Source: Gemmatimonadota bacterium (GTDB lineage Bacteria > Gemmatimonadota > Gemmatimonadetes > Longimicrobiales > Gaopeijiaceae). From it: 64,000 bases of DNA. The translations under genes were made by a program, and so were the position numbers. The stretch spans positions 62,001 through 126,000 of the forward strand of contig JAGWBQ010000004.1 in NCBI GenBank assembly GCA_021295815.1. The letters are read 5' to 3'. Below, piece by piece: positions 36,679 through 38,929 of the stretch (the first letter of the stretch is position 1; each line of letters opens with the position of its first letter). The notes beneath the pieces were generated by a model. The model was not told the origin of the DNA, ran no database searches, and saw only the letters and a program-made list of their open reading frames with translations.

Positions 36679-37449
36679 TCATCCGTCCGTCTCCATCTCC
36701 ACCGCCCGGGCCTCCGATTCTCCGACCGCCGGCTCCCGGCGGCGAAAGACCGAACGAAGTCGCTCGCTCCACGACCGCCGGCGCGCGAGCACGATCTGCA
36801 CCCGCTCCCCCGCCGTCGTGACGTCTCGCTCTTCACGGACGCGTCCAGCCTCGCATCTTGCTCCGCCACCGAGACCGTCCACGTGGACGAAGTGCACGTC
36901 TTCGCCCGGTTCGGGGCATGCGATCCGGTATCTCCGGCCGTCCCAGATGAAATCCTCGTAAGCTTGCCCGCGCCATTCCCGTTCAAGGAAAACCTCGTCC
37001 TCCACCGCCCATGCGCACGGTCCCAACCGCTCCCCGCGACGGTAGTAGTCCGCCTCGAAGGAGTCCCCGCGGTATCTGCGGAAGCTCTGCTCCATCGCGT
37101 GGTCGACGTCGCCGAGATCGTCCGCGTCCACCAGGGATTCGAGGTGGTGCTGGAGCTCGTGGGTGACGGTCTCGTAGATCTGTTCGCGCCAGTCGAACTC
37201 GGGGTCGATCTCCGCAAGCGCCCGGAACGAGCCCCAGTGGAGAATGATGAGCGAGCGGACGGTTTCCGGCCCCTCCCAGCCCGAGGGATATGACTCGGTC
37301 AGGCACTCCCCCAATGTGAACACGTCCTCGAAATCAGGGTGTGTGAGCCTCTCCCTCTTAATTGTGAGCCCGTCCACACCGGTCCGGTAGGCTGGGGGTA
37401 TCTCCTCGAAAATTCGTCGCGCCGCGACTTCGAACGAATGGAAATCCAT
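36679..37449 (-). CDS. Zincin-like metallopeptidase family protein
   Basis: 256 residues. 'VTHELQHHLESL' gives the HExxH zinc motif (H-E-L-Q-H) near residue 93, in the setting seen in the bacterial Zincin_1 family ('IYETVTHELQHH'). The N-terminal half, 'FEVAARRIFEEIPPAYR' and 'VFTLGECLTESYP', also fits that family. The third zinc ligand is not certain. The C-terminal ~100 residues are extra: a second possible domain with 'FIWDGRRYRIACPEPGEDVHFVHVDGLGG' and a basic tail. No signal peptide is seen, so it is probably cytoplasmic. Its ATG overlaps the stop of the small Tat-lipoprotein reading frame. Confidence 0.78.
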   Translation of the reverse strand: MDFHSFEVAARRIFEEIPPAYRTGVDGLTIKRERLTHPDFEDVFTLGECLTESYPSGWEGPETVRSLIILHWGSFRALAEIDPEFDWREQIYETVTHELQHHLESLVDADDLGDVDHAMEQSFRRYRGDSFEADYYRRGERLGPCAWAVEDEVFLEREWRGQAYEDFIWDGRRYRIACPEPGEDVHFVHVDGLGGGARCEAGRVREERDVTTAGERVQIVLARRRSWSERLRSVFRRREPAVGESEARAVEMETDG

Positions 37450-37666: not shown

Positions 37667-37894
37667 CTAAACCGGCTCGGCCAGCGCCCGCAGGATCTCC
37701 TCGGGGCTCGGAAAGCGTCGCAATTTCTTCTTCGAGAAAATGAGCCTGCCGTCGGACTCCACCTCGAAGCGACCGCCAGATGACGACACCAGCTCGATGT
37801 CGGCGTCAGGGTGACGGTCGGTGATGCTGGCCGCCAAACTGACGGCTTTAGGCTTGTAGTTTCACATCGAGCAGTATTCGATCGAGATGCGCAT
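37667..37894 (-). CDS. SelW-like selenoprotein (Rdx family), UGA read as selenocysteine
   Basis: 75 residues if the in-frame TGA at 37862-37864 is decoded as selenocysteine (U11). The N-terminus reads M-R-I-S-I-E-Y-C-S-M-U-N-Y-K-P-K-A, the CxxU redox motif followed by the 'YxPKA' of SelW/SelT/SelH proteins. The rest is also family-like: 'AVSLAASITDRHP', 'SSSGGRFEVESDGRLIFSKK', 'RRFPSPEEILRALAE'. Homologues often have Cys in place of Sec. The fold is thioredoxin-like and the family is linked to redox or oxidative-stress roles. Standard gene calling misses it because of the TGA. There is no clear Shine-Dalgarno; ATG 37894 is chosen from family N-termini. Cotranscription with the next two genes is likely. 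Confidence 0.85.
37830..37846 (-). promoter_or_regulatory. Candidate bacterial SECIS element
   Basis: On the minus strand, starting 15 nt after the UGA, GCCGTC-AGTTT-GGCGGC forms a 6-bp stem (five Watson-Crick pairs and one G-U) with a 5-nt loop. The loop begins 21 nt after the UGA and has G as its second base. Known bacterial SECIS elements have a small apical loop 16-37 nt after the UGA with a G at loop position 1 or 2, so this fits. The element lies within the coding sequence, as usual in bacteria, where SelB binds it. Confidence 0.7.
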
Positions 37895-38137: not shown

Positions 38138-38929
38138 TTACCAGCCCAGACTCTCGCCTCCGTCCACTACCAGCGTCTCGCCCGTCACGTAGGACGCGCT
38201 CGCCAGGAATACCACCGCGCGGACAACGTCCTCGGGCGACGGATTCGCGGCCAGCGGCACCATCCGACGAACGCGCGCGACGTCTTCCGCGTCGAAGTGC
38301 TTCGGGGAAAGCACGTCGCCGGGCGCGACCGCGTTCACCCGCACATCGGGAGCCAGTCGTCCGGCTGCGATCCGCGTTAGCTGCAGAAGCCCCGCCTTCG
38401 CGACCGAGTGGTGCGGATGGCTCGTCCACGGCCGCACGGCCGAAAGATCCGCGATGTTGACCACCGAACCTCGCCTGGCGCGCAGAAGCGGCGCCGTCTC
38501 CCGGATCATTAGGAAGGGCGCCCTCAAGTTCAGGGCCAGCACCGCGTCCCACTCGTCCGCGCCAGTGTCGAGAATATCTCCAGAAACGAAGCTCGCAGCC
38601 GAGTTCACGAGCAGATCGAGCTTCCCGAAGGCCTTCTCGAGCTTGCGGCACAGGGCAACCGCGCCTGCTTCTTCGGTGAGATCGGCCTGCACGACATGAG
38701 CGCGTCTTCCGAGCCCCCGGACCCGGGCGGCCGCGGTCTCCGCCTCGGCTTCCGACCGATTGTAGTGAAGGAGGAGGTCCCAGCCTCGTTCGGCCAGCCC
38801 GACCGTGATCGCGCGGCCGAGTCGAACGGCTCCGCCCGTGACGAGCGCCACCCGGCGATTCCCGGTCCGTTCCCGGTCGGTACCGCCCCGATTGTGGAAA
38901 CCCTTCGGCGTCGGGCGATGCTCGTCCAC
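38138..38929 (-). CDS. Short-chain dehydrogenase/reductase, pteridine reductase-like
   Basis: 263 residues from GTG 38929. The SDR coenzyme motif is 'VALVTGGAVRLGRAIT' (TGxxxxxG) and 'HYNRSEAEAE' suggests NADPH preference. 'LLVNSAASF' replaces the usual NNAG region. The active site reads 'HPHHSVAKAGLLQLTR': the YxxxK tyrosine is His174, with Lys178 kept, and the Ser-like position falls in 'NIADLSAVRP'. 'VRVNAVAPGDVL' and 'YVTGETLVVDGGESLG' complete the fold. Pteridine-reductase-like SDRs resemble it most. The frame is open far upstream through the DinB gene but without homology. It is 23 bp downstream of DinB. Confidence 0.85.
   Translation of the reverse strand: MDEHRPTPKGFHNRGGTDRERTGNRRVALVTGGAVRLGRAITVGLAERGWDLLLHYNRSEAEAETAAARVRGLGRRAHVVQADLTEEAGAVALCRKLEKAFGKLDLLVNSAASFVSGDILDTGADEWDAVLALNLRAPFLMIRETAPLLRARRGSVVNIADLSAVRPWTSHPHHSVAKAGLLQLTRIAAGRLAPDVRVNAVAPGDVLSPKHFDAEDVARVRRMVPLAANPSPEDVVRAVVFLASASYVTGETLVVDGGESLGW

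Follow-up and report, generated by a model that had tools for sequence, protein, structure and literature searches.

The minus strand of the 64-kb stretch of DNA analyzed here (the window) almost certainly encodes a bacterial SelW-like selenoprotein of the Rdx family, in which the organism's own SelA, SelB, SelC and SelD decode codon 11, a UGA, as selenocysteine via a hairpin inside the open reading frame. According to the proposed mechanism, SelB carrying Sec-tRNA(UCA) would bind this hairpin, and the product, 75 residues long, would be a thioredoxin-like protein whose redox centre is C8-x-x-U11. The features of the locus and the other candidates with an in-frame TGA in the same genome are listed in Table 1.

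Table 1. Features of the selW-like locus (window coordinates) and further genes of the genome with an in-frame TGA (locus coordinates)
Feature	Position	Strand	Description and basis
selW-like ORF	37667..37894	(-)	75 codons plus stop, UGA at codon 11 (C8-S-M-U11); Pfam and NCBIfam matches, AlphaFold2 model
In-frame TGA, predicted selenocysteine codon	37862..37864	(-)	Second redox position of CxxU; comparison across mapped loci
Putative bacterial SECIS-type hairpin	37830..37846	(-)	nt 19-35 from T of UGA; 6-bp stem, 5-nt loop AGUUU; predicted fold, covariation, synonymous constraint
SDR (short-chain dehydrogenase/reductase), upstream neighbour	38138..38902	(-)	Pfam adh_short_C2, 162 bits
Zincin-like metallopeptidase, downstream neighbour	36679..37449	(-)	HELQHH motif; weak match to Pfam Zincin_1, 17 bits, below cut-off
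selD with in-frame TGA	L018:1501-2421	(+)	GUACK; genome contig C17
Two peroxiredoxin-family genes and one AhpD-like gene with in-frame TGA	L143:1501-1905, L146:1501-1893, L147:1351-1800	(+), (+), (-)	WUPYC, TPGUT, CFYUT

Sequence and profile matches of the selW-like gene

Translation of the minus strand from 37894 to 37667 yielded the product MRISIEYCSMUNYKPKAVSLAASITDRHPDADIELVSSSGGRFEVESDGRLIFSKKKLRRFPSPEEILRALAEPV, with the TGA as its sole interruption. The coordinates, the C-S-M-U motif and the downstream peptides given in the first-pass annotation were all correct. With the TGA entered as Cys for the profile programs, the Pfam profile Rdx (PF10262) matched positions 1-72 of 74 with 72.7 bits (E 2.9e-20, cut-off 22.6 bits), and this full-domain match, which spans the TGA as the annotation had expected, places the product in the Rdx family. 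The NCBIfam models SelTWH_Campy (101.5 bits, cut-off 88) and CXXU_selWTH (64.2 bits, cut-off 34.2) were matched as well, and both C8 and position 11 were invariant in the alignment. No obvious Shine-Dalgarno sequence was found upstream of the start codon. When the window was scanned by codon usage for TGAs that might be read through, the TGA of selW ranked 16th of 498, and most of the output consisted of what look like shadow frames; composition alone was therefore insufficient to detect this gene.

A conserved hairpin 3' of the UGA

The predicted hairpin starts 15 nt after the UGA and presents its loop 21 nt after it. The G at loop position 2 (37839) was invariant in 68/68 non-redundant sequences of the class. 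Across these sequences 95.8% of the cells were paired, compared with 94.0 +/- 0.2% in synonymous shuffles that preserved the protein sequences and the codon content of each column and ignored the kinship of the sequences, and the inclusion of other phyla widened the contrast to 96.9% versus 89.0 +/- 0.8%; none of the 2000 shuffles reached the observed value in either set (0/2000). In the set with other phyla, pairs changed on both sides, with C-G, G-U, U-A and G-C found at pair 21-33, and G-C and U-A at pair 22-32. Counted from the UGA, codons 6, 7, 8 and 10 retained 0.36, 0.05, 0.08 and 0.30 of the expected synonymous entropy and codon 9 retained 0.65, while codons further 3' mostly stayed at 0.8-1.1; codon 1 was low as well (0.38). 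On average, the stretch 3' of the UGA had a lower folding energy than its synonymous shuffles (mean z -0.90 in 69 sequences, as against -0.06 in a control stretch). In contrast, the energy of the window's own hairpin was not exceptional (z -0.16 in dinucleotide shuffles, z -0.5 in synonymous shuffles), and since the energy of this single hairpin was uninformative, the case for a SECIS element rests on the comparison. The drop in synonymous variation, the covariation and the invariant loop G together show that the hairpin is conserved beyond the needs of the protein and selected at the RNA level. It fits the bacterial SECIS model quoted in PMC13188914. At gathering scores no Rfam family matched anywhere in the window, and the SECIS of selW is not detected by any family described there.

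This constraint also bears on the possibility that Cys or a near-cognate residue is sometimes inserted at the UGA, so that a mixed population would arise in which selenocysteine is the minor form when selenium is short. In principle, such mixed decoding is known to affect some selenoproteins when selenium is limiting. The sequence offers no support for it here, the constraint on the hairpin points to selenocysteine as the selected product, and we regard such mixed reading as very improbable.

Conservation of the UGA among relatives

The class was surveyed with 394 genomes, 181 of which contained an Rdx match. Two scans combined revealed exactly one TGA inside the Rdx match in 176 of these 181 genomes, the exceptions being G026, G271, G327, G203 and G246. 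Where the column could be mapped, it held TGA in 83/91 loci and in 29/30 further loci, and across all mapped loci (a few of which repeat the same genome) TGA was present in 112 and TGC in nine. Every mapped TGA occupied the same column, also in relatives outside the class, whose genomes bear the labels Pseudomonadales, Planctomycetaceae, Neomarinimicrobiota, Polyangia and Desulforadius. The homologue column at codon 11 thus holds either Sec-TGA or Cys, the outcome anticipated for the alignment by the first-pass annotation, and its argument that a random stop would be unlikely at this very position was borne out by the survey. Most of the Cys forms encountered belonged to a separate WLLRAAWMAQELL branch of the Rdx family.

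An ancestral CxxC Rdx gene that suffered a nonsense mutation at its second Cys would likewise show a stop inside the ORF under the standard code. A pseudogene of this origin is refuted by the conservation of the TGA, which recurs in 176 class genomes as well as in other phyla and is flanked there by intact sequence, and the complete selenocysteine machinery of the genome as well as the RNA-level selection directly 3' of the UGA argue against it, leaving it very improbable. A TGC misread as TGA, conceivable in what appears to be a draft assembly of 35 contigs, is more improbable still, given that independently assembled genomes from the family, the order and the class all have the TGA.

Among the metagenome-assembled genomes of the window's family, MPMR01000044.1 (L053/L070), L071 and L072 carry the NCBI labels Gammaproteobacteria or BD2-11 clade. 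MPMR01000044.1 itself is labelled BD2-11 clade. A BD2-11 group is listed in Gemmatimonadota (PMC10469786), whereas NCBI places the BD2-11 clade in Gammaproteobacteria, and the labels of these genomes may be wrong; Gemmatimonadota is the placement that we would tentatively prefer.

Selenocysteine machinery and further selenoprotein candidates

The decoding machinery was searched family by family in the genome to which the window belongs (2.47 Mb, 96% complete). The search returned tRNA-Sec (anticodon TCA; 70.6 bits, gathering score 47), SelA (487 bits), SelD (383 bits) and SelB (309 bits), the last with a GTPase domain, a SelB beta-barrel and a C-terminal SelB winged helix, so that the set of SelA, SelB, SelC and SelD is complete. 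The claim that this organism decodes selenocysteine was supported in this respect, and with the Rdx match across the TGA and the homologue column, the machinery supports the earlier interpretation of the locus as a hidden SelW-like selenoprotein.

SelD itself contained one in-frame TGA, followed by a strong hairpin on its 3' side. A search of the genome for two redox families added a Prx-like gene (WUPYC) near selD on the same contig, a peroxiredoxin (TPGUT) and an AhpD-like protein (CFYUT), all three with the in-frame TGA at a redox position; the AhpD-like protein matched the NCBIfam (seleno)protein model named after its motif, though below the cut-off. With five in-frame TGAs at redox positions, the genome contains at least five selenoprotein candidates, including the selW-like gene and SelD. 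That several genes have a UGA read through would also be expected if UGA were reassigned throughout the genome, for instance to Trp or Gly, a reading with next to no credibility because each of the five in-frame UGAs observed occupies the position of a redox Cys, the tRNA with the TCA anticodon is tRNA-Sec accompanied by SelA, SelB and SelD, and in-frame TGAs are absent from SelA, SelB and the majority of the other genes searched.

Local recoding of the UGA as selenocysteine is also in line with the distribution of the machinery among the relatives. SelA was matched in 290/394 genomes of the class, from which selenocysteine decoding appears to be common there. SelA was strongly matched (E 1e-60 or better) in 165/181 Rdx-positive genomes (Fisher p ~1e-15). 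Of the remaining 16, six had only a weak or partial SelA and 11 had SelB above the cut-off. In one UGA-bearing genome (G134; 81% complete, 510 contigs) neither SelA nor SelB was found above the cut-off, and this absence was put down to incompleteness.

One relative, the one-contig genome G203 (L132), had TGC at the UGA column of an otherwise similar protein. Profile searches of this genome returned no match to SelA and no SelB above the cut-off. Its loop codon was GCG, compared with AGT, GGT or AGG in the UGA forms. G203 fits the picture expected of a change from Sec to Cys with loss of the RNA signal.

Predicted fold and redox function

The AlphaFold2 model, built with 28 aligned relatives, had a pLDDT of 94.4 and showed the SelW-family fold, matching solved structures of that family at a TM of ~0.89. 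In the model C8 closes the first strand (E2-8) and U11 immediately precedes the first helix (H14-27). The nearest structures in Foldseek were the bacterial SelW-family proteins 2fa8, 2obk and 2p0g (TM 0.84-0.90), next MIEN1 and mouse SelW, and then thioredoxins. Given this fold and the placement of C8 and U11 in the model, a CxxU redox function is the best reading of the product. The redox centre would probably form a selenenyl-sulfide, or a glutathione adduct, as it exchanges thiols and disulfides or detoxifies peroxides. Glutathione-dependent antioxidant or thiol-disulfide activity would be expected by analogy with the family (SelW literature cited in PMC1088965), and what is known of the family likewise suggests the actual insertion of selenocysteine, the binding of the hairpin by SelB, and the redox chemistry and partner.

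Gene neighbourhood and phosphofructokinase

None of the most recurrent neighbour clusters among the relatives included the selW locus of the window, and no conserved operon explains its placement there. By a motif search, and hence approximately, a phosphofructokinase gene was located directly 3' of selW on the same strand in 35/52 class loci outside the window's family and in 5/5 loci of the order (40/57 together), as well as in 1/14 loci of the family itself and 0/37 loci outside the class. The loci with this arrangement were drawn from L113-L142 and L022-L069, and in L131 the identity of the phosphofructokinase was established by PF00365 (334 bits). In the window's own genome selW was not adjoined by phosphofructokinase. 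The frequency of the pair outside the window's family raises the idea that in this class the UGA-encoded SelW works as a partner of glycolysis and might sense or protect the phosphofructokinase step, a speculation to which we give little weight.

Relation to known SelW-like proteins

The novelty implied by the first-pass annotation did not hold, as few bacterial selenoprotein families are as well known or as abundant as the SelW-like proteins (PMC1088965, PMC9312934, PMC9402790). With 48 genes, SelW-like CxxU proteins ranked first in abundance among the families of the Sargasso Sea selenoproteome of 2005 (PMC1088965), they are listed with CxxU in reviews (PMC9312934, PMC13188914), and they account for 11.3% of marine selenoprotein genes (PMC9402790). 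Very few Cys homologues of SelW-like proteins have been described in organisms that use selenocysteine (PMC1794560), in agreement with the few Cys forms in our counts of the UGA column. The gene of the window is a further member of this family known in bacteria since 2005 and adds little that is new: it has the same family (PF10262) and CxxU motif and the same type of in-ORF bacterial SECIS after the UGA, and nothing essential differs. The Cys-form Rdx proteins of bacteria (PDB 2fa8, 2obk, 2p0g, 3dex) have the same fold (TM ~0.84-0.90) with CxxC in place of CxxU. The protein is homologous in sequence to mouse SelW (PDB 2npb), with which it has the thioredoxin-like fold in common. Whereas the CxxU-containing selenoprotein W of eukaryotes has its SECIS in the 3' UTR, the putative element of the window gene lies inside the ORF, where it constrains the codons for A-V-S-L-A-A.

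In E. coli fdhF a SECIS hairpin also lies just 3' of the UGA. The loop of the window's own gene is AGUUU, while many relatives in the class have GGUCU, which we take to resemble the apical loop of fdhF; stem sequence and spacing presumably differ between the fdhF hairpin and that of the window. The lineage (searched as 'Gemmatimonad') is not named in PMC9312934, PMC13188914, PMC9402790, PMC5029168 or PMC12013277, and the literature searched contained no report of the spread of selW-like genes through this class or of their frequent position before phosphofructokinase.

The general picture of bacterial selenoproteins is unchanged by this finding. Annotation by the standard code would call a 10-residue fragment and overlook the selW-like gene in a lineage that is mostly uncultured. 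Within the gene, the predicted SECIS hairpin dictates the choice of codons for the SelW-like protein, and the natural Sec-to-Cys difference in G203, in which the machinery appears to be missing, may be viewed as a small evolutionary experiment.
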